A DNA stretch of 64,000 nt, from positions 1 through 64,000 of the forward strand of contig JAJDXM010000046.1 in assembly GCA_022823225.1 (NCBI GenBank), read 5' to 3'. The notes under the pieces were generated by a model. That model was not told where the DNA came from and made no database searches. It was given only the letters and a program-made list of their open reading frames with translations. The stretch is from Gemmatimonadota bacterium. Its GTDB lineage: Bacteria > Gemmatimonadota > Gemmatimonadetes > Longimicrobiales > Gaopeijiaceae. Positions 28,960 to 41,739 of the stretch are shown here, piece after piece. Position 1 is the first letter of the stretch, and each line of letters opens with the position of its first letter. The translations under genes and the position numbers were made by a program.

Positions 28960-31900
28960 CTAGAAGCCGACCCGGAACGAGAACGTGAACCTCCTCGGCA
29001 CCGGTACCCCGAAGGCCTCGGTCGCGGTGAGGAAGTTGCAGCTCACGCCTCCGCCGGTGCAGTTGGCGGACGGGTTGATCTCCGGATCGATGCCGCGGTA
29101 GTCGCCGAACATGAACAGCTTCACGTTGCGTCCGCCGACCGTGGCCGTGGCGTTGCGCAGTCCCCACCGCTCGATCATGTCGCCGGGCAACCGGTAGGAG
29201 AGCGAGATCTCGCGCCAGCGAATGAAGTCCGAAGTCCAGATCTGGTTCATCCCCGACATCGGTGCAAGCGCCCGATACTCCCTCGCCCACTCCAGCGCCG
29301 CATCAAGGCGCTGCTCGGCGGTTGACGCCGGGTTCAGGAGGACCGAACCCACCCGGGCGGTCCCGGGAACGTTGCGGCCGATCACCGCGTTGGCTTGGCG
29401 GAAGGCACCCGTCAGATCCTGCGTGTGGAAGTTACCGAACTTGTATTCGAAGTTCGTCGTGAGCGAGAAGTCGCCCAGGAAGTCGATGTCGGCCCCGAAG
29501 GAGCCTGCGAAGTCCGGGTCGGGCTTGCCGATGTACTGCATGAGGTACTCGGCCGAACCGCCGGCGCAACCCACCGGGATCACGTCGAAGTGCTGCAGTT
29601 CGCGGGGCTCGCTGAAGTACTCCAGCGCCGCGGCTCTGGATGGCTCCACGCACCGCTCAACCCCATCGCCCGGCAGGTACAGCGGGAGCGCCATGTCCGG
29701 ATCCAGGATCGCGCCCAGGAAGGAACCGGGTGCGCGTCCCTCGATCAGGAAGTTGCGGTACCGCGGATAAGACCCGCCCGTCTTGAGAGGGGGCGCGCCG
29801 CCGAGGTCCGTCACGACCTGGTCGAGATAGGCCGTGTTGGCGAAGACGTTGATGCTCAGGTCCGCTGAGTTGTAGACGGATCCGTTGAGCGTCACCTCGA
29901 GCCCGCTCGCGTCGAGCTGCCCGATATTGTCCAGCTGCGTGCGCGTGAAGCCGCCCGTCACCGGAAACTGGCGAGCCACGAGGGCGTCGGTGGTGACCCG
30001 GGTGAAGTAGTTGACGTCGAGCGCCACGCGGTCGTTCCAGAGCCCGAGATTGGCTCCGATCTCGATTTCGTCGGTAACCTCGGGCTTGAGCGCCTGGTTG
30101 CCCAGGTTGCCCGGGGCCAGGCCTGCACCGACCTCGGCCGGCCGCGGAACGAAGGTCGTGAACTTGTCGAAAGCGCCCGGCTGGAGCCCCGCCTGGCCCC
30201 ATGCGGCCCGGAAGCGGAGGCTGGACAGCATCTCGTTGTCCCATTCGAAGAGATCGGTGGGAACAACGGAGAGCCCGACCTTCGGATAGGTCGCGGTGGC
30301 GAATTCGGAGCCGAAGGCGCTATTCGCGTCGAAGCGCGCGCCCACGGTCAGGAAGGCCCAGTCCTGATAGCCGACCTGCTCCTGGAAGTACCCGCCGGCG
30401 TTGACCACGCGGGTCCAGCTCTCGGAGGTGGACTGGTCGGCGCCGGCGCTGGCGACTTCGAGGCCGGGCCCCGGGAAGCCGTCACCGTTGCCGCCGTGGT
30501 AGACGTTCTGGCTCAGGAATCCCTGCGCGCCCGCGGTAAGCGTGCTGCTGAAGTCGCCCAGGAAGTCCGTCTCGTACGAGAGCTTGAAGTCGCCGGTCAC
30601 TTCGCGGTTGTTCCGGTCGCCGAACCAGCGGATGCCGTCGGTGTTGTAGCCCGAGAAGTTGTCGACGTTCCAGCCGAAGGGGTAGAACGAGACGTTGGTG
30701 CCGTTGGAGATGTCGATGCCGAAGGTGCCGTCGAAGACGAGACCCTCCATGACGTTCCAGTTGGCGTTGATGCTGCCGGCGAAGTGCTCGACATCCTCGG
30801 TGGACTCGGCTTCGGCGGTCTCGCGCATGGTCGCGAAGGCGCGGCTGCCGTAGAAGTTGTTGTCGTCCGCGAGCCGCATCTGGCCCATCAGAGCCAGCGA
30901 GAAGACGCCGTAGATGTTGTTGCCGCCACGCATGCGGGTCTGGTTGAGCTCGGAGTAGAGCCCGGTGACCCGCAGGCGGAGGTTGTCGAAGGGGAAGATC
31001 CCGATGTTCATCGTCGCCTGGCGACGTCCGATGGTATCCTCCGACTTGAGCTTCTGGTTGTTCGGAAGGATGCCCTCGAGGGTGCTGAACGGCCCGTTCT
31101 CGTCGTGCACGCGCGCCGACACGAAATACGTGATGAGGTCGGCGCCGCCCTCGACGGACCCGGAGTAGGTCTGCGCGTAGCCGGTGTTATAGAAGTCCTC
31201 GAGATAATTCTCCGAATAGACCTCGAAAGGCTGGAGGTTGACGCCCCAGCGCGAGTTCATGCGCGCCACCTGCTCGGCATCCCGGGGGAAGTCCGCGTGC
31301 GGAACGAAGCGGTCCAGCGGCGCCCGGATGGCGGTCTGGTCCGTCTGCACCGACCAGCGCGCCGCGCCCTGGCGGCCCCGCTTGGTGAAGATCTGGATCA
31401 CGCCGTTGGAGGCTTCCGTGCCGTACAGCGTTGCCGCCGCCGCACCCTTGAGAATCTCGATGCGCTCGATCGAGTTGGGATCGATGTCGTCGATCCGGCG
31501 AGTGGATGCTTGCGCGGCACCCCATCCGCCGCCGCCGCCGCGGTCGATCCGGACACCATCCAGGTAGATGACCGGCTCGTTCGTCTGGGACAGCGAAGCG
31601 GAGCCGCGGATGCGGATGCGTCCGCTGGCCCCGGTGTCGCCGCCGCCGGGAAGCCCGACGACTCCGGCTTCACGGCCCTGGAGCACGTCGCTGAAGCTCG
31701 TGATCGGGACGTCCTGGAGCCTGCCGACATCGACGGTCGCGATCGAGTTGCCGAGCTTCTTCTTCTCGGTGGCCACGCCGGTCCCCGTAACGACGATCTC
31801 GTCCATGTTGAGCGCCGTCACGGTCAGGCCGATCTCCACGCGTTCCGTGTCGCCTTCACTGACCGTCACGGTCTGCGACACCGTCCGGTATCCGAGCAGC

Positions 31901-32160
31901 TGAGCGGTCAGCGTGTACTCGCCGACCGGCACGTTGAGGAAAAGATACTGGCCGGTGTTGCTGGTGAGTGTTCCGAAGGCCGTCCCTTCGAGGTACACCT
32001 GTGCCGACGCCAGCGGCCGGCCCGACCCGGCGTCGGTGATCTGTCCGGAGACGGATCCGGTTTCCTGGGCCTTCAATGGAAAGACGAAGCCGGCCACGAG
32101 GGCCAGAGCCAGTCCTCCCGCCCCACTTCTGAGGCTTCTGCCAACCAGGTTACGTGTCAT
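28960..32160 (-). CDS. SusC/RagA family TonB-linked outer-membrane protein
   Basis: A 1066-residue TonB-dependent transporter with signal peptide (cleaved near PLKAQ), carboxypeptidase-regulatory-like domain (about 32-115), an EIVVTG TonB-box-like motif and a plug domain. The SusC signature around GTEASNGVIQIFTKRG is present. The barrel ends in a terminal Phe (FRVGF). GGGAGGG lies six bases before the ATG. It heads a likely operon with a SusD-like protein and two lipoproteins. It is only distantly like the first SusC here, so the two pairs probably take up different ligands. Confidence 0.92.
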   Translation of the reverse strand: MTRNLVGRSLRSGAGGLALALVAGFVFPLKAQETGSVSGQITDAGSGRPLASAQVYLEGTAFGTLTSNTGQYLFLNVPVGEYTLTAQLLGYRTVSQTVTVSEGDTERVEIGLTVTALNMDEIVVTGTGVATEKKKLGNSIATVDVGRLQDVPITSFSDVLQGREAGVVGLPGGGDTGASGRIRIRGSASLSQTNEPVIYLDGVRIDRGGGGGWGAAQASTRRIDDIDPNSIERIEILKGAAAATLYGTEASNGVIQIFTKRGRQGAARWSVQTDQTAIRAPLDRFVPHADFPRDAEQVARMNSRWGVNLQPFEVYSENYLEDFYNTGYAQTYSGSVEGGADLITYFVSARVHDENGPFSTLEGILPNNQKLKSEDTIGRRQATMNIGIFPFDNLRLRVTGLYSELNQTRMRGGNNIYGVFSLALMGQMRLADDNNFYGSRAFATMRETAEAESTEDVEHFAGSINANWNVMEGLVFDGTFGIDISNGTNVSFYPFGWNVDNFSGYNTDGIRWFGDRNNREVTGDFKLSYETDFLGDFSSTLTAGAQGFLSQNVYHGGNGDGFPGPGLEVASAGADQSTSESWTRVVNAGGYFQEQVGYQDWAFLTVGARFDANSAFGSEFATATYPKVGLSVVPTDLFEWDNEMLSSLRFRAAWGQAGLQPGAFDKFTTFVPRPAEVGAGLAPGNLGNQALKPEVTDEIEIGANLGLWNDRVALDVNYFTRVTTDALVARQFPVTGGFTRTQLDNIGQLDASGLEVTLNGSVYNSADLSINVFANTAYLDQVVTDLGGAPPLKTGGSYPRYRNFLIEGRAPGSFLGAILDPDMALPLYLPGDGVERCVEPSRAAALEYFSEPRELQHFDVIPVGCAGGSAEYLMQYIGKPDPDFAGSFGADIDFLGDFSLTTNFEYKFGNFHTQDLTGAFRQANAVIGRNVPGTARVGSVLLNPASTAEQRLDAALEWAREYRALAPMSGMNQIWTSDFIRWREISLSYRLPGDMIERWGLRNATATVGGRNVKLFMFGDYRGIDPEINPSANCTGGGVSCNFLTATEAFGVPVPRRFTFSFRVGF

Positions 32161-33928: not shown

Positions 33929-35290
33929 TCACTGCAACCAATCGCCGAGCGGGAGCACGGCCACGCGCACGCGGCCCTCCCCGGCCGGGTCGGTCCAGGC
34001 CAGCATCAGCCGTCCGGGATCGAGCCGCGCGATGCGGGGAAAGCCGGCCGCGCGCCCGGAATCGGTGTCCGCCAGCGTCATCGGCGCGCCCAGGGTCCCG
34101 CCGGGCGCGGCGAGGCGCCCCAGGATCCGCGCACCGGCCGGGGTCCGCTCGATCCAGGTCACAAGCGCCGAGCCATCGTCCAGCATCACCACGTCCACGC
34201 GGCCGGCCGGCTGTCCCGAGTCCACCCTCGCAGGCAGCCCGAAGCTTGCGGCGCCGTCCTCCGAAAAGGCGACGTTGACGCGCGCCCGCCCCTCCGGTGC
34301 CGTGAACCAAGCCACCGCGACGCGCTCGTCCCGCGCCGCGATCGCGGGGCCGTTGACCGGACAGCCACCGATCACCCAACCGTCTTCGTGAACGGAGACC
34401 GGGTCGGTCCATCCCGAGTCCAGGAGGCGGGTGACGGAGATGTCGCGGACTTCGCCCTGAACCCGGTCACGGTATACGAGTACCGGAACACCGTCTGCCA
34501 CGGCAGCGTCGGTCTGGCAGCACTCACAGGTGCGATCGTCAACGACGGTCTCCGGCCCGGCGGCCGGCCCCGCCGCACCGGCGCGGCCCGCTTCCGCCGG
34601 TCCACCCACCGCCGGCCCCGCTGCAGGCGACACGGGCAGCGAACGGGCCCGGAGCGACATCGGCCCGCCCGGCTCCACCATGGCGCGCCCGTCGAGCCAG
34701 GCGGCCCACACCGCTCCCCCGGACTCGAAGAGCGACACGAATCCATGCTCGGTCGGCGTCCCGTCCTCGTGGGGCGTCCAGGGCTCGACCCAGCTGGCCC
34801 CGCCATCCACCGACCATGACAGGCGAACGCCGTAGTCGTAGGTTCCCTCGCCTCCCCTCCACAGCCAGTGCGCCACCAGCAGGTCGCCAAAAGCGTGGAT
34901 CGACGGGAAGTCGGCCCAGTTGACGAAGAAGCGGTCTCCCTGCGCCACCGTCGACGGCCTGCCCCAGGTGCTGCCGTCGAAGAAGGAGGCGGCCACGCGG
35001 TGTCCGGACGGGTCGGGTTCGGTCCAGCTCATCCAAATACCTCCGCGGGCGGGAGCCAGGAACGGCTGGCCGCTCCCGGGGGGCGCCGGCGAGGTGATCG
35101 CGGAAGCCCCGGCGGTGACTGAAGCATCCCGGCGGGCAACCGAAACACCACTCCGGGCGCCGGTTTCGTCCGCGTCGCCCGCGCAACCGCCAACCGTCAG
35201 CCAGAGCGCGGTTGCGACGATGAGGGCGCTTGGCGAACGTCTCTCCGAATGCGTTCTCGCCGCCTTCCGCAGGAAGCTCACTGTGGTCAT
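33929..35290 (-). CDS. BNR/sialidase-fold lipoprotein with a CxCC motif
   Basis: A 453-residue lipoprotein (signal peptide, lipobox VGGC near 37). The body is a predicted six-bladed propeller with Asp-box-like phrases (LSWSVDGGASW, VAFSEDGAASF). A conserved-looking TCECCQTDAAV motif lies near 250, followed by VYRDR; this Cys-rich motif recurs in uncharacterised 'exo-alpha-sialidase' annotated proteins of Bacteroidota and Gemmatimonadota. I see no set of sialidase Arg-triad residues that would support real sialidase activity. The start is the ATG that begins the signal peptide; an earlier in-frame start is less likely. Confidence 0.75.
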   Translation of the reverse strand: MTTVSFLRKAARTHSERRSPSALIVATALWLTVGGCAGDADETGARSGVSVARRDASVTAGASAITSPAPPGSGQPFLAPARGGIWMSWTEPDPSGHRVAASFFDGSTWGRPSTVAQGDRFFVNWADFPSIHAFGDLLVAHWLWRGGEGTYDYGVRLSWSVDGGASWVEPWTPHEDGTPTEHGFVSLFESGGAVWAAWLDGRAMVEPGGPMSLRARSLPVSPAAGPAVGGPAEAGRAGAAGPAAGPETVVDDRTCECCQTDAAVADGVPVLVYRDRVQGEVRDISVTRLLDSGWTDPVSVHEDGWVIGGCPVNGPAIAARDERVAVAWFTAPEGRARVNVAFSEDGAASFGLPARVDSGQPAGRVDVVMLDDGSALVTWIERTPAGARILGRLAAPGGTLGAPMTLADTDSGRAAGFPRIARLDPGRLMLAWTDPAGEGRVRVAVLPLGDWLQ

Positions 35291-35535
35291 TCCGCTTGCA
35301 GGGGTGTATTGTCCATTAGGTTTCGAAGGTAAAAGATGACGCATCCCGCGGCCTGCGGTAAGGCCGCGCCGTGATCGGGCCCGGGGACCCTGGCGGCACA
35401 GGCAGTGTAATAGGCGTAGCGTACCATGCGTATCTTGGCCCGGCGGGTCCTGCCTGCCAGGAATGGCGAATTCAGCGGTCCGTGACGGGGATCGACCCGT
35501 CCGGCGCCGCTCACGACACAGGGAAGAGGTTGACC
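35291..35535. other. divergent intergenic region with a hairpin
   Basis: This 245-bp gap separates two divergent exported-protein genes. It has a perfect 8-bp inverted repeat CGCGGCCT/AGGCCGCG at 35347-35368. No convincing promoter hexamers on either side by eye. Confidence 0.4.
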
Positions 35536-38500
35536 ATGACAGCAGCAGTCGGAAACAACCGGAACCGCGGGGGCCGCATCCTTTGTTGGGCCGGGGCCGT
35601 CGCGCTCCTGCTGACCCTTCCGGTTCCGGCCTCCGCCCAGTACTTCGGCCGCAACAAGGTGCAGTACGAGAACCGCGAGTTCAAGGTGCTCACCACCAGG
35701 AACTGGGATATCTACTTCTACCCTGAAGTCTACTCGGAGGAAAACTCCGCGATCGAGGACATCGCGCGCCTTTCCGAGCGCTGGTATGAGCGCCTTTCCA
35801 GGTTCTTCCAACACGACTTCGCGATCACCAAGCCGCTCATCATCTATGCCGATCACCCGGACTTCCAGCAGACCAACACGCTCTCGGGCGCAATCGGGCA
35901 GGGGACGGGAGGCGTTACGGAATCCCTCAAGGACCGGGTGATCATGCCCCTGACCGTATCGTACCAGGAGACCAACAATGTCCTGGGGCACGAGCTGGTG
36001 CATGCCTTCCAGTACGACATTACCAAGAGCCGCAGCTACGGCGGAATCATGAGGCTGGCCGGGCTGCCGCTGTGGGTGGTGGAGGGGATGGCGGAATACC
36101 TGTCGCTTGGACGCGAGCATCCGCATACGGCGATGTGGCTCCGCGACCACCTCTACAGGGACGAGAAGCCCACCCTTGCCGAGATCTCCCGGAATCCCAA
36201 GTACTTCGCCTACCGTTTCGGCCAGGGCATCATTTCCTATCTGGGCGGGATCTACGGGGACGAGTCCATTCAGGACTTCTACCGCACGGCGCTGCGGGTC
36301 GGATGGGAACCGGCCATCGGCGAGGTGTACGGCCTGTCCCAGGATACCCTTTCGATGCAGTGGTGGGACGCGGTCGAGGCCGCATACGCGCCGCTGATGG
36401 CGGGCCGGACCGGTCCCTACGAGACCGGCGACGTGCTCCTTTGCGTCGAGTGCGGCGGAGGCCGGGTGAACGTCTCGCCGTCGCTGAGTCCCGATGGGCG
36501 CTACATCGTCTACCAGTCGGAGAAGGACCTGTTCTCGATGGACATGTTCGTTGCCGATGTGGAGACCGGACGGATTCTGCGTCCCCTGCAGCGCAACGAG
36601 ACTCCGGTGATCGACGGCATCCGCTACCTGGATTCGAGCGGCTCCTGGTCGCCCGACAGTCGAAAGCTCGCCTTCGTGGTCCTCGCCGGCGGGAATCACC
36701 AGCTCGCGATCATGGACGTCACGAGCGGCAGGCTGGAAGACCGGATCGTGATCGAGCAGCTCGGGGCGATTCAGAACCCGGCGTGGTCGCCCGACGGCTC
36801 ACGGATCGTGTTCACCGGACTGAAGGGCGGGGTCTCGGACCTCTACGCCTATGATCTCGACACGGAGACGGTCAGCCAGCTGACCAACGACAAGTACGCC
36901 GACATGCACGCCGCCTGGTCGCCCGACGGAAGCACGCTGGCCTTCGTATCGGACCGCGGTCCGGAGACCGACTTCGTCGAGCTGACGTTCAGCAACTACG
37001 TGCTGTCCTTCCTGGATATCGAGTCGCTCGAGGTGACGCCGATGGAGGTCTTCGCGAACGCGAGGCACACCAACCCCGTCTACGACCGGAGCGGCGAGGG
37101 CGTCTACTTCATCTCGGACGTGGACGGGTTTGCCGATGTCTTTCACGTGAACCTGACCGATGGCGGGCACCGCCGGATCACCCGGACGGTGACCGGAGTG
37201 AGCGGGGTCACCGCCCTCTCCCCCGCCCTCTCCTACTCGCCCGCCAAGGACCTGCTGGCGTTCTCCGTCTTCCACGAGCGCGGCTTCATCGTCAATGTCG
37301 CCCATCCGGACGACATCAGCTACGCGGACGTGGTGGCGTCCGGGGACGTCCAGACCGGCCGCCTGCTGCCTCCGGGGCTTCCCGGAGTCCGCAGCCGCGT
37401 CGCGACCTACCTCGACGATCCGTACATGGGGCTCGTGGCCGAGGAGGTGTACACCGTGGACCAGGCCGAGGAATACCGTCCTTCGCTGGCACTCGACTTC
37501 GTGGGCCAGCCCGGTATCGGGGTGAGTACCGACCAGTTCGGATCCTATGTGGGAGGTTCGGCGTACGCGTATTTCAGTGACATGCTCGGGGACCGCCTGC
37601 TCGGTGTCTCCGCCCTGGCCAACGGGAGCTTCAAGGACATCGGCGGACAGGTCTTCTACATGAACCAGAAGAACCGGTGGAACTGGGGGGTAGGCGTTCA
37701 GCACACACCGTACCAGCGCCAGTACTACACCCAGACGAGGGACCGATTCACCGTCCTGCGCGAGCGCATCTATATCGATGCGGTCGACGGCCTGCTCGCG
37801 TTCCCCCTGTCCGCCACGCGGAGGATCGAGGGCGGTGTCGGCTTCACGCGCTACGGGCACGCTCTGGAGGAGGAGATCTACTACATCAACCAGTTCGGCC
37901 AGCTGATCGACTTCGAGCGCACCGGGCGGCAGGGACGCGACCCGCTGTACCTCGGTTCCGCGTCGCTTGCCCTCGTGGGAGACAACTCCTACAGCGCGTT
38001 CACCAGCCCGGTTCGGGGGCAGCGGTATCGGTTCGGCGTGGAGAGCACGCTCGGCACGGTCGGCTTCCAGGGAGTCACGGCGGACTACCGGCGCTACTTC
38101 AACTTTACCGGCCAGCTCACATTCGCTTTTCGGGGCCTGCACCTCGGCCGCTACGGAGACACCGCGGAGCTGGACAGGCACCAGCTGGGCCCATTCTTCC
38201 TCGGATACGAGACCTTCATCCGCGGCTATGCGTACAATTCGTTCGACGACATCCGCCAGTCGCGGCGGTGTGAGCTGTCCAACCTCGGCTCGACCTGCCC
38301 CGAGCTTGACCGGCTCTTCGGGCACCGGGTGGCCGTCGGCAACGCCGAAATCCGCATTCCGTTCACCGGCGTCGAGGAATTCGGGATCATCCCCTTCCCC
38401 TACGTTGCGGTCGAGCTCGTCGCCTTCTCCGACATCGGCATCGCCTGGGACAGCGAGCGGCCGGCGGAATGGGGTTGGTCACGCGACTCCGCCGCACGCA

Positions 38501-38637
38501 TACCCGTGGCAAGCAGCGGCTTTTCGGCCCGCGCGAACATTCTCGGGATGCTGATCCTGGAGACCTACTACGCCTATCCCTGGCAGCGCCCCACCAAGGG
38601 CTGGCACTGGGGCTTCCAGATCGCTCCGGGCTGGTAG
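35536..38637 (+). CDS. exported metallopeptidase-like, TolB-propeller, outer-membrane barrel fusion
   Basis: A 1033-residue protein starting at an ATG with AGAGG upstream and a signal peptide ending near PASAQ. Residues 35-270 resemble the peptidase MA (gluzincin) fold: HELVH at 152-156 supplies the zinc site, and EGMAEY at 183-188 gives the likely third ligand. About 300-600 is a TolB/WD40-like propeller with repeated WSPDG and LAFVS phrases. The last 400 residues alternate aromatic and Gly-rich strands (GQRYRFGVESTLGTVGF) and end in an outer-membrane-type aromatic terminus (APGW), consistent with a BamA-like or other beta-barrel. Substrate and partners unknown. Confidence 0.82.
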   Translation: MTAAVGNNRNRGGRILCWAGAVALLLTLPVPASAQYFGRNKVQYENREFKVLTTRNWDIYFYPEVYSEENSAIEDIARLSERWYERLSRFFQHDFAITKPLIIYADHPDFQQTNTLSGAIGQGTGGVTESLKDRVIMPLTVSYQETNNVLGHELVHAFQYDITKSRSYGGIMRLAGLPLWVVEGMAEYLSLGREHPHTAMWLRDHLYRDEKPTLAEISRNPKYFAYRFGQGIISYLGGIYGDESIQDFYRTALRVGWEPAIGEVYGLSQDTLSMQWWDAVEAAYAPLMAGRTGPYETGDVLLCVECGGGRVNVSPSLSPDGRYIVYQSEKDLFSMDMFVADVETGRILRPLQRNETPVIDGIRYLDSSGSWSPDSRKLAFVVLAGGNHQLAIMDVTSGRLEDRIVIEQLGAIQNPAWSPDGSRIVFTGLKGGVSDLYAYDLDTETVSQLTNDKYADMHAAWSPDGSTLAFVSDRGPETDFVELTFSNYVLSFLDIESLEVTPMEVFANARHTNPVYDRSGEGVYFISDVDGFADVFHVNLTDGGHRRITRTVTGVSGVTALSPALSYSPAKDLLAFSVFHERGFIVNVAHPDDISYADVVASGDVQTGRLLPPGLPGVRSRVATYLDDPYMGLVAEEVYTVDQAEEYRPSLALDFVGQPGIGVSTDQFGSYVGGSAYAYFSDMLGDRLLGVSALANGSFKDIGGQVFYMNQKNRWNWGVGVQHTPYQRQYYTQTRDRFTVLRERIYIDAVDGLLAFPLSATRRIEGGVGFTRYGHALEEEIYYINQFGQLIDFERTGRQGRDPLYLGSASLALVGDNSYSAFTSPVRGQRYRFGVESTLGTVGFQGVTADYRRYFNFTGQLTFAFRGLHLGRYGDTAELDRHQLGPFFLGYETFIRGYAYNSFDDIRQSRRCELSNLGSTCPELDRLFGHRVAVGNAEIRIPFTGVEEFGIIPFPYVAVELVAFSDIGIAWDSERPAEWGWSRDSAARIPVASSGFSARANILGMLILETYYAYPWQRPTKGWHWGFQIAPGW

Positions 38638-38677: not shown

Positions 38678-39625
38678 CTAGAGGATCCTTATGGTGATGT
38701 AGCGGCCGGGGTTCTCCCTGATGTCGTTGAGCAGTTCCTCAAAGCTCGTCGCTGCGTCGTTCAGCGTGTTGTAGAGCGTCTCATCGACCGACAGCCTCCC
38801 GAGGGTCCCCTCTCCCCGCTCGATTCGGCCCAGAATCACGCTCAGGGACTCGGCCGAGCCGGCGAGCGTTTCGGCAGTGCGGTCCAGGTTGGCGGCGGTT
38901 GCCTCGGCCGATGCAAGGAGGCTCTGCCACTCCTCCGAACCGCTCACGCGCTCCAGGTTCTCGGCGGTCCGCTGGAACTCTTCCAGCGCGGCGCGGACCT
39001 GCGCGCTCCAGCCGCTGGTCATGTCGGCTGCGTCGTCGAAAAAGTCCCGCAGCGACCGCACGGCGGCCTCCGTGTTCGCCACAATCGAGTCCGAAAGCAC
39101 CCCCTGGACCCTCGCGAGCACGCCCGTCGCCTCGTCCGCCACGCCCGCGGCCACATCGAGCGCACCCGCGACGTTTGCCCCGGGAAGCAGGGTTCCCGGC
39201 TCGACGAATCCCGGACCTGGGCCGGTCACTACAGATACGACCATCCCGCCCAGGAATCCCGTGGAGTGCACTTCCGTCCGGGATCCGACCGGGATCTGCC
39301 AGCCGCGATCGATTTCGAGGGTGAGCAGGACTCCGTCTTGCCCGGTCAGGTCGAAGCCTCGTACGCGGCCGATGTGCACCCCGCGCATCGTCACGGCATC
39401 GCCGCTGCGCATCCCGCCCGCGTCCTCCACCTGGGTCAGAACGGTGTAGCGCCCCCTGAAGGTCCCCGGGTTGGTCATTGTGAAGAGAACTATGAAGAAG
39501 CCTGAGAGACCCAGGATGACGAAGAGCCCCACGCGGAGTTCCCGCACCCGCCTGGTGGCCGGAATGGTCCGCAGGATCTCGTCGTCCGAGGGTTGCCGGC
39601 TGTCCGGCGGCACCGCGTTATTCAT
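38678..39625 (-). CDS. mlaD: MlaD/MCE-family lipid transport substrate-binding protein
   Basis: A 315-residue protein with one N-terminal membrane helix (about 31-52) and an MCE domain (about 55-150: VEDAGGMRSGDAVTMRGVHIGRV, GFLGGMVVSV). The remainder is a long helical region that could form a periplasmic tunnel or coiled coil. It would span the periplasm side of a phospholipid or hydrophobe ABC transporter. Its ATG overlaps the mlaF stop by four bases (ATGA). Confidence 0.9.
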   Translation of the reverse strand: MNNAVPPDSRQPSDDEILRTIPATRRVRELRVGLFVILGLSGFFIVLFTMTNPGTFRGRYTVLTQVEDAGGMRSGDAVTMRGVHIGRVRGFDLTGQDGVLLTLEIDRGWQIPVGSRTEVHSTGFLGGMVVSVVTGPGPGFVEPGTLLPGANVAGALDVAAGVADEATGVLARVQGVLSDSIVANTEAAVRSLRDFFDDAADMTSGWSAQVRAALEEFQRTAENLERVSGSEEWQSLLASAEATAANLDRTAETLAGSAESLSVILGRIERGEGTLGRLSVDETLYNTLNDAATSFEELLNDIRENPGRYITIRIL

Positions 39626-40404
39626 GACATTTCCACCACGTCCAGGGCTGCCTCGGCAGCCGCGCGATCAACAAAGGCCCTGACGACCGGGTCGGCCTCG
39701 GTCTGAAACTCGTCGGGGGTTCCGCAGAAGCGAATGGATCCACCCTCGAGCATGGCCACCCGGCCACACATCCACAGCGCACCCTCCACATCGTGAGTGA
39801 CAAGCACCGATGTCACCCGGAGCTCTCTGGAGAGTCGCCTGATCAGTCGCTCGATGGCCGCCGTATTGACAGGGTCGAGGCCGGTGGTCGGTTCGTCCCA
39901 AAGGAGAATGCGTGGCCGTCCCACGATAGCCCGCGCAATCCCCACGCGCTTCTTCATCCCTCCCGAGAGCTCGGCGGGAAGGACGGACATCACCTCCCTT
40001 GGATCCAGGTTCACCAGCTCGAGCGCATCCCAGACCGCCCGCGCCACTTCAGTCTTCGGCATCCGGCGCAGCCGGTCCTCGGGCAGGCCCATCTCGACGT
40101 TGTCGTACACGGTCATCGAGTCGAAGAGGGCCGCGTACTGAAAGACGTATCCGACCTGTTTTCTGACTGTATCCAGGATGCCCCTGGCGCCGTGGTAAAG
40201 AGACTCGCCGCGCACCTCGACGTCTCCGCGGTCGGGGACGACCAGGCCGATCGTCGTCTTCAGCAGGACGCTCTTTCCGGTTCCCGAAGGCCCGAAGAGC
40301 GCAAACATCTCGCCCTCGTGGATTTCGAGGTTGACACCGGAAAGAACCGGGCGCTTGAAGGACTTGTGGGTGTCCAGGTAGCGGATTACGGGGGCGGGCT
40401 TCAC
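39622..40404 (-). CDS. mlaF: MlaF-type ABC transporter ATP-binding protein
   Basis: A 260-residue cytosolic ATPase. Walker A GPSGTGKS is at 38-45, the signature motif is LSGGMKKR, Walker B reads ILLWDEP and the switch His is in VLVTHDVEGAL. Methionine-rich SGGM and the 'ALFDSMTVYDNV' Q-loop region are typical of the Mla/Ttg2 subfamily. The start is a GTG seven bases after the mlaE stop. It energises the permease MlaE. Confidence 0.93.
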   Translation of the reverse strand: MKPAPVIRYLDTHKSFKRPVLSGVNLEIHEGEMFALFGPSGTGKSVLLKTTIGLVVPDRGDVEVRGESLYHGARGILDTVRKQVGYVFQYAALFDSMTVYDNVEMGLPEDRLRRMPKTEVARAVWDALELVNLDPREVMSVLPAELSGGMKKRVGIARAIVGRPRILLWDEPTTGLDPVNTAAIERLIRRLSRELRVTSVLVTHDVEGALWMCGRVAMLEGGSIRFCGTPDEFQTEADPVVRAFVDRAAAEAALDVVEMS

Positions 40405-40411
40405 CGGGCTG

Positions 40412-41200
40412 TCACTGCAGGAAGAGCGGCGGGAACATGGCGTCGAGGATAAAGATGGTGAGCAACTGGAACATCACGGAATCGGTCGTGGTGCGGCCGA
40501 CCCCCTCGGCCCCCCCGGAGGTTCGGAATCCCATGTGGATCGCGATGACCGGGAACGCGAAGCCGAAGGTGATCGCCTTCATGAACGAATAGAACACATC
40601 CCACGACTGCCAGAGAAGGCGGGCCCCGAACAGAAAGGTCTCGTAGCCCAGATCGAGTGTTATCTCGGCCACGATCATGCCTGAAAGGGAACCCACGAAG
40701 TCGGCGAACCCGACCAGCGCGGGCATCACCACGATCCCGGCCAGGACGCGGGGCGCCCCGAGGATGATCAGCGGGTCTCTCCCGAGTGACCGGTAGGCGT
40801 CGATCTGCTCGGAAACGACCATGGTGCCGAGCTCGGCGGTGATGCGCGCGCCCACCCTTCCGACCAGGATCACGGCGGTCAGCACGGGTCCCAGTTCCAG
40901 GATCACGCTGGTGACGGTGATGCTTCCCACCACGTACAGGGGAACCGTGGAGGTGAGCTGGTAGCCGCCCTGCTGGGAGGTGACGATACCGGTCAGCACG
41001 GCGGTGACCATCACGATGGGCACGCTCTGGAGCCCCATGATCTGAAGCTGCCGGACGAATTCCTTGAAGGAGACGCGAAGCCGCACAGTGGCGGAGAAGG
41101 TGGCCCAGACGAGCAGTCCCAGCTGGCCGGCGTGCTCGGCGCAGATGTCCCACCGTTTTGCCACCCACCTGACGGGACGCTCGAGAAACCCGCTGCTCAC
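40412..41200 (-). CDS. mlaE: MlaE-family ABC transporter permease
   Basis: A 262-residue inner-membrane permease with about five to six helices and the MlaE core motifs (GLQSVPIVMVTAVLTGIVTSQQ with its ELGPVLTAVILVGRVGA region and TTTDSVMFQ near the end). I place the start at the GTG at 41200, which overlaps the upstream gene's stop as GTGA. The open frame runs farther upstream but that part is low-complexity and overlaps the preceding gene. Confidence 0.9.
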   Translation of the reverse strand: MSSGFLERPVRWVAKRWDICAEHAGQLGLLVWATFSATVRLRVSFKEFVRQLQIMGLQSVPIVMVTAVLTGIVTSQQGGYQLTSTVPLYVVGSITVTSVILELGPVLTAVILVGRVGARITAELGTMVVSEQIDAYRSLGRDPLIILGAPRVLAGIVVMPALVGFADFVGSLSGMIVAEITLDLGYETFLFGARLLWQSWDVFYSFMKAITFGFAFPVIAIHMGFRTSGGAEGVGRTTTDSVMFQLLTIFILDAMFPPLFLQ

Positions 41201-41739
41201 CGGGCGGAGCGGCGTCGCGGGGCGTTCCGTGCGCGCGCCGGGCTCAGCACCAGTCCCACCGAAACGGTCTGCTCGTTGATCGATTCGGAGCCGATCTGCT
41301 GGCGGTATTCGGCGTAGGGCCAAAGCACCGGAAGCACACGAATTCGAATCCCGAAGATCAGGTTGACGGACCAATCGCCGGAATCGTCCGACTGACCGTC
41401 GCTGAACCGCCGATAGTTGGCGCCCAACCCGAGATAGAGAGGCGTCGGCGGCACCGCCAGGAGCTGCAGTCCGGCGTCGGAGGCGGAACACGTGCCGCAA
41501 TCGGGGAAGAAGTGGTCGTATGTGCCCGCCAGCGTCAGTCCGCCGGGGAGGAAGCTCAGATCGACCTCCGCGCGTCCCCCGACGCCGAAGGAGCCGCCCA
41601 GAAACTGCGTCTGCCACGCGCCGTGAGCGCCCGCGCGTACCTGGGCCGTGGCGGGCGTGGGCCAGGCGGCCAGGCCGGCGAGGACGACGAGAATCAGCCG
41701 GTGGCGACCCGACGTCCGTCGTTTTGATAGGTCAGCCAT
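41197..41739 (-). CDS. small exported beta-barrel-like protein heading the Mla operon
   Basis: A 180-residue protein with a signal peptide (cleavage near PATAQ). The mature part shows short Gly/aromatic beta-strand patterns (VGGRAEVDLSFLPGGLTLAGTYDHFF, LYLGLGANYRRFSDG), consistent with an eight-stranded outer-membrane barrel, and a CGTC motif. Its stop overlaps the mlaE start by four bases, so translation is coupled. A role as an outer-membrane partner of the Mla system is inference. Confidence 0.75.
   Translation of the reverse strand: MADLSKRRTSGRHRLILVVLAGLAAWPTPATAQVRAGAHGAWQTQFLGGSFGVGGRAEVDLSFLPGGLTLAGTYDHFFPDCGTCSASDAGLQLLAVPPTPLYLGLGANYRRFSDGQSDDSGDWSVNLIFGIRIRVLPVLWPYAEYRQQIGSESINEQTVSVGLVLSPARARNAPRRRSAR

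Follow-up and report, generated by a model that had tools for sequence, protein, structure and literature searches.

What is a zinc-peptidase motif doing at the front of a chain that ends in an outer-membrane barrel? The question is raised by one gene in the window, the whole stretch of 64,000 nucleotides from a Gemmatimonadota genome that was analyzed here. From the letters alone, an earlier note had read HELVH and EGMAEY, propeller repeats and a C-terminal barrel in this single 1033-residue chain. All three modules proved to be real, and HELVH (152-156), EGMAEY (183-188), and the PD40 repeats lie where they were first noted. A signal-peptide-like start is followed by a gluzincin-like domain with HExxH...EGxAEY, a TolB-type propeller, a variable linker, and finally what is predicted to be an Omp85 (BamA) superfamily barrel with 16 strands:

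35536..38637, + strand: whole gene, an open reading frame of 1033 aa plus stop
35536..35637, + strand: signal-peptide-like N-terminus, aa 1-34, ASA/Q, read from the translation
35677..36405, + strand: gluzincin-like peptidase domain, aa 48-290, Pfam BSP matched by 55/55 aligned domains at E<=0.01
35989..36003, + strand: HELVH, aa 152-156, with predicted zinc ligands H152 and H156 and catalytic E153, invariant in 74/74
36082..36099, + strand: EGMAEY, aa 183-188, with E183 as predicted third zinc ligand, E183 and E187 invariant in 74/74
36421..37314, + strand: TolB-like propeller, aa 296-593, from the PD40 profile and TolB fold matches
37315..37497, + strand: variable linker, aa 594-654, about 60 residues with the lowest conservation
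37498..38634, + strand: predicted Omp85-type 16-strand barrel, aa 655-1033, from the AF2 model, fold match, and profile
38218..38229, + strand: IRGY, aa 895-898, within the long loop that joins model strands 11 and 12, RGY invariant in 55/55
38269..38298, + strand: C912 to C921, cysteine pair on the IRGY loop, invariant in 55/55 homologs

A GTG 55 codons upstream of the ATG is a possible longer start. We favor the given ATG because it is preceded by a purine-rich stretch (GGGAAGAGG) and gives a signal-peptide-like start. Judged by eye from the translation, the first residues look like a Sec signal peptide that ends in ASA/Q35, and Q35 is kept in 51/55 homologs of alignment A1. This alignment holds the query and 54 of 63 matching ORFs (n=55, rows with 31-78% identity to the query). 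Left out were the query itself (L001), the same genes as longer loci (L027, L028, L030, and L040), a sequence equal to L046 (L018), a partial one (L020), a near-duplicate of L025 (L026), and L023, which bears the motif and was needlessly dropped.

An invariant gluzincin motif

H152, E153, H156, E183, and E187 are invariant in 55/55 rows of A1 and in 74/74 distinct matching ORFs among all homologous loci collected, paralogs included. The motif is therefore not a product of chance, and that reading was rejected. The hallmark of gluzincins (clan MA; BSP, M9-like), an HExxH followed downstream by a Glu in an EG motif, is present in all 74; in the window protein, E183 lies 27 residues after the second His. 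In M1 and M9 enzymes, an EG motif of this kind supplies the third zinc ligand, and it is by analogy to these enzymes that we take E183 to be the third ligand here.

Matches to peptidase families point in the same direction. Among the 55 aligned domains, BSP is matched by 55, DUF6055 by 33, Peptidase_MA_2 by 24, and M9 collagenases by 23 (E<=0.01 for BSP, Peptidase_MA_2, and M9). In the window protein, the BSP match spans just 49 residues and scores 25.1 bits for the domain alone and 22.5 bits for the whole protein, against a cut-off of 23.8. The peptidase domain is also the best conserved part of the chain, with a mean majority fraction of 0.69 and 26/253 columns invariant in A1. Its motifs suggest a gluzincin metallopeptidase domain that would bind zinc and act as a protease.

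It could be argued that the domain is a pseudo-peptidase that merely binds peptides, since its match to any solved peptidase is weak: solved peptidase structures gave no convincing sequence match, and the fold search gave no peptidase match, though the peptidase part of the model is weak and that search scarcely covered it. However, the catalytic Glu and all predicted ligands are identical in all 74 ORFs, even in paralogs, and we find this explanation scarcely credible.

A TolB-like propeller in place of POTRA domains

The middle of the chain matches PD40 repeats in four stretches (Pfam, E 2.6e-25). In the fold comparison, residues 284-571 align with TolB (4pwz; Z 24.1, rmsd 2.4, 240 residues aligned) and residues 296-582 with the TolB-like 2ojh (Z 24.5). 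We call the propeller TolB-like and not TolB because it scores 120.7 bits on the TolB equivalog, under the curated cut-off of 343.15; a better TolB candidate in the same genome, on contig C58, is likewise below threshold at 234.9 bits. Conservation in A1 is intermediate for the propeller (mean majority fraction 0.61, 14/300 columns invariant) and lowest around the linker, where residues 601-655 have a mean majority fraction of 0.50 and 1/55 columns invariant. This variable linker stands in the POTRA position, and no POTRA family is among the Pfam matches at E<=1. A TolB-like propeller directly before an Omp85-type barrel, without POTRA, is the WD40-Omp85 architecture.

An Omp85-type barrel beside a separate BamA

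The earlier note had left the choice between a 14- and a 16-strand barrel. An AF2 model built from 14 sequences has 16, at moderate confidence (mean pLDDT 60.8, pTM 0.40); a model from the single sequence was useless (mean pLDDT 30.8). The strands were counted by hand from the DSSP list between residues 675 and 1031, leaving aside a 3-residue strand at 660-662, and the first two have pLDDT under 50.

By fold, residues 655-1033 match Deinococcus BamA (8xnb; Z 21.1, rmsd 4.6, 309 residues aligned), the mitochondrial SAM complex (Z 20.3), and TamA (Z 19.2). By profile, hhalign gives P 89.9 and E 1.7e-6 against 30 distinct BamA barrels, the organism's own entered twice, with P 0.4 for the reversed BamA profile as a control, and P 47.7 against TamA. 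A hmmsearch with A1 detects BamA at 1.5e-5, and PF01103 does not detect the window protein as a single sequence. There was no hhalign match to the patatin-Omp85 protein and the further Omp85 protein on contig C63 of the same genome (P 0.4 and 1.3), to a TonB receptor (P 0.1), or to a 180-aa barrel of the window, so that all comparisons other than BamA and TamA lie at P 0.1-1.3. Because the other Omp85 relatives fall in this range, membership in Omp85 rests on BamA, TamA, and the fold. Model and fold match, with the profile match to BamA, point to a barrel of Omp85 type.

Sequence details of the barrel fit this assignment. Both IRGY and the cysteine pair lie in one long loop of the model (875-930), which connects strands 11 and 12. 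We take IRGY to be the loop-6 motif of Omp85 barrels, (V/I)RG(F/Y); R896, G897, and Y898 are identical in 55/55 rows of A1. The FxDxG strand is kept as well (G968 in 55/55, D966 in 54/55), in a barrel with a mean majority fraction of 0.58 and 30/378 columns invariant.

Is the window protein then the BamA of this organism? That candidate was rejected. PF01103 finds four other Omp85 proteins in the genome: BamA, followed by an OmpH/Skp-like ORF (contig C76); a TamA-like protein, followed by a TamB-like ORF (C4); the further Omp85 protein on C63; and a PlpD-like patatin-Omp85 (C47, L081:2761-5052), the names on C4, C63, and C47 being read from translations. With the window protein as an additional member, the genome has at least five Omp85-type proteins. 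A separate BamA is present in 41/41 genomes, one as a partial match, and the window protein is thus not the housekeeping insertase.

It might still be an insertase for specific clients, its barrel inserting outer-membrane or lipoprotein clients selected by the propeller while the peptidase removes a propeptide or tail. The retained loop-6 RGY and FxDxG strand, which a mere anchor would not need, are consistent with this. However, POTRA domains are absent, a canonical BamA and a TamA-like protein are already present, and no client gene is linked outside the organism's own family; we regard such an insertase as quite unlikely.

Gene neighborhood

The genes on either side are the following:

33929-35344, - strand: divergent 471-aa ORF with no Pfam or NCBIfam match, upstream in 27/57 homologous loci
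38678-41617, - strand: mlaD, mlaF, and mlaE (MlaD, MlaF-like ABC, MlaE), downstream and convergent with the gene

MlaD is encoded downstream in 35/57 distinct loci, within 600 bp in 32. The 22 loci without it consist of all 16 taken from the phylum's other families and 6 with 2 to 1500 downstream bases. Most loci belonging to the same family keep the mla order, against 0/16 from other families. It is tempting to place the protein in a Mla lipid-transport route, acting with the adjoining mlaDFE in outer-membrane lipid homeostasis, the more so as a section title in the PlpD paper states that membrane lipids change when plpD is deleted (PMC11116518). However, the link is missing in every locus from other families, and the gene and mla are not one operon because they are convergent. 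A neighbor that is both convergent and limited to one family says little about function, and we consider a Mla role very improbable. No operon partner hinting at quality control was seen in the loci.

Two further genes may be recorded here. A SusC/RagA-like TonB-dependent receptor with a carboxypeptidase-regulatory-like N-terminal domain lies at 28960-32160 on the - strand of the window, and contig C52 of the same genome (L078:1-2892) encodes another protein with a Peptidase_MA_2 match, with TPR-like repeats flanking it.

Distribution and inheritance

A protease anchored by its own barrel would be unusual, according to the earlier note, but the protein is no rarity of this genome: a relative (E<=1e-40) is found in 148/150 genomes sampled across the Gemmatimonadota, this one included. 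Fusions of Omp85 with a propeller or with an enzyme have been on record since 2014. All nine sampled families have matches, with up to four per genome, some of them pieces of one gene. The distant family f9 has versions with 971 and 977 residues, which retain HEMVH...EGLAEY and LRGY.

The two genomes without a relative, G098 and G053, look like cases of assembly gaps. In G098, mlaD stops 155 bases short of a contig end, and G053 yields no mlaD either, which weakens the idea that the gene was lost in two strains. One copy in G093 is cut by contig ends, and one in G122 (L153) is split into two frames, the break lying in the linker between propeller and barrel. In G075, a single-contig genome of the same family that is counted among the 148, the last 221 residues alone were found in the 10 kb examined (L142), so the gene may be dispensable.

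The midpoint-rooted tree of the 55 sequences has two groups, with support of 0.68 and 1.0 on its two sides. Each group contains one copy from G006 and one from G024, whereas the two from G013 sit within a single group, in different subgroups. Within the phylum, the three parts of the chain covary in pairwise identity (r 0.89-0.93, 1485 pairs), as expected for a chain inherited as a single unit.

A pattern scan of contigs returned 13 loci, titled Gemmatimonadetes, Gemmatimonadota, or Longimicrobiales, and says little on other phyla because the patterns were derived from the query alone. The 25 pattern matches among viral contigs include no confirmed relative. Plasmid records gave 46 matches, and among the 15 listed just one matched beyond the propeller, a "basic secretory protein-like protein" on plasmid pSR116 of Salinibacter ruber, which belongs to another phylum (WP_118831798.1, L114:3414-5315). 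It has 46% identity over query residues 34-579 and stops after the propeller; no barrel could be read in the next annotated gene or in the ORFs listed nearby. Peptidase and propeller thus form a module of their own. The ORF that follows reads as a serine-carboxypeptidase-like protein.

Location and proposed role

Where would the enzyme work? Because the N-terminus of an Omp85 barrel faces the periplasm, the N-terminal domains would be periplasmic unless threaded out. We propose that the protein is exported to the outer membrane and belongs to the Omp85 superfamily, with a gluzincin metallopeptidase and a TolB/BamB-like propeller in place of the usual POTRA domains. Its 16-strand barrel would lie in the outer membrane with the N-terminus on the periplasmic side, so that propeller and peptidase hang below it. 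The probable task of the propeller is to bind clients or partner proteins. The peptidase would act at the outer membrane, much like BepA, and trim or degrade envelope proteins that are immature or misassembled; it is built into the barrel protein and would not dock on BAM. A periplasmic, outer-membrane-anchored metallopeptidase for quality control or processing of envelope proteins is the role that we rank first, on what we judge to be an even balance. That an HExxH peptidase can act on barrels at the outer membrane as a real role is known from BepA (PMC8423444). We also count in favor of the quality-control role that the Salinibacter form shows peptidase and propeller as a free protein of exported type.

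Alternatively, peptidase and propeller could be passed outside as an autotransporter-like passenger and digest external protein. Many enzymes of the BSP and M9 families, which the peptidase domain matches, are secreted. The chain has a signal-peptide-like start, a long variable linker, and a C-terminal barrel as in type V systems, and a linker of 60 residues is long enough for crossing a barrel. However, two folded domains would need passage across that barrel, and in the Omp85 barrels studied, the N-terminal domains stay periplasmic (PMC11116518). PlpD, long thought to export its patatin domain, was found to hold this enzyme domain exclusively in the periplasm (PMC11116518), which leads us to favor a periplasmic enzyme and to consider a surface protease unlikely. 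The proposal of a surface or periplasmic protease on its own barrel was upheld for the barrel, now named as Omp85 with 16 predicted strands, while nothing that we found favors surface exposure.

The quality-control role can be taken further. If the Omp85 barrel has given up POTRA and gained a propeller that binds clients and a zinc peptidase of its own, the protein may be a single-chain station for outer-membrane assembly and quality control throughout the phylum, in which folding or destruction of a client is decided within one protein. We see this as possible, if speculative.

What would this mean for the phylum? A three-domain protein that is near-universal in the sampled Gemmatimonadota hints at a built-in enzyme, as yet unstudied, for quality control in the cell envelope. 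Outer-membrane biogenesis has Omp85 proteins at its core, and their POTRA-less subfamilies are barely studied; the PlpD paper, in the parts drawn on here, describes the WD40-like and metalloprotease subfamilies as not well characterized (PMC11116518). An invariant protease motif on a phylum-wide Omp85 barrel offers a clear test case of an enzyme built into an assembly scaffold, and shows a possible site of envelope quality control in bacteria with hardly examined outer-membrane machinery.

Comparison with known systems

Heinz and Lithgow (2014; PMC4104836) defined ten Omp85 subfamilies, WD40-Omp85 and "Metallo" among them, and several lack POTRA, which is thus not required. WD40-Omp85, likened there to a BamA-BamB fusion, shares with the window protein an N-terminal WD40-like propeller, nearest TolB, on a POTRA-less Omp85 barrel. 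The window protein differs in its extra N-terminal gluzincin domain; the survey, in the text available, gives WD40-Omp85 none and does not contain the word "peptidase" (PMC4104836). The same proteins may stand unrecognized among its WD40-Omp85 members. A 2026 review of BAM mentions WD40 for BamB alone in its accessible text. The propeller-Omp85 kind is already known, and we found no description of the peptidase-bearing form, a gluzincin-propeller-Omp85 fusion, in the open-access literature.

The Salinibacter ruber protein WP_118831798.1 shares peptidase and propeller with the window protein, but has 633 aa and lacks what follows them. PF00149, we assume, is the calcineurin-like phosphoesterase family and not one of peptidases. 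This is the domain of the "Metallo" subfamily, which likewise joins an enzyme to an Omp85 barrel and for which periplasmic quality control has been proposed (PMC4104836); the domain of the window protein is peptidase-like. PlpD and other patatin-Omp85 proteins also fuse an N-terminal hydrolase to an Omp85 barrel, but PlpD combines a patatin lipase with one POTRA (PMC11116518) where the window protein has a metallopeptidase-like domain and a propeller; neither patatin nor POTRA is among its Pfam matches at E<=1, and the same is true of M48 and TPR. The last two make up BepA, which shares the HExxH motif and is a zinc peptidase for barrel proteins at the outer membrane (PMC8423444). In contrast to BepA, which is soluble and docked on BAM, the window protein has a BSP/M9-like domain that is covalently joined to its own barrel.
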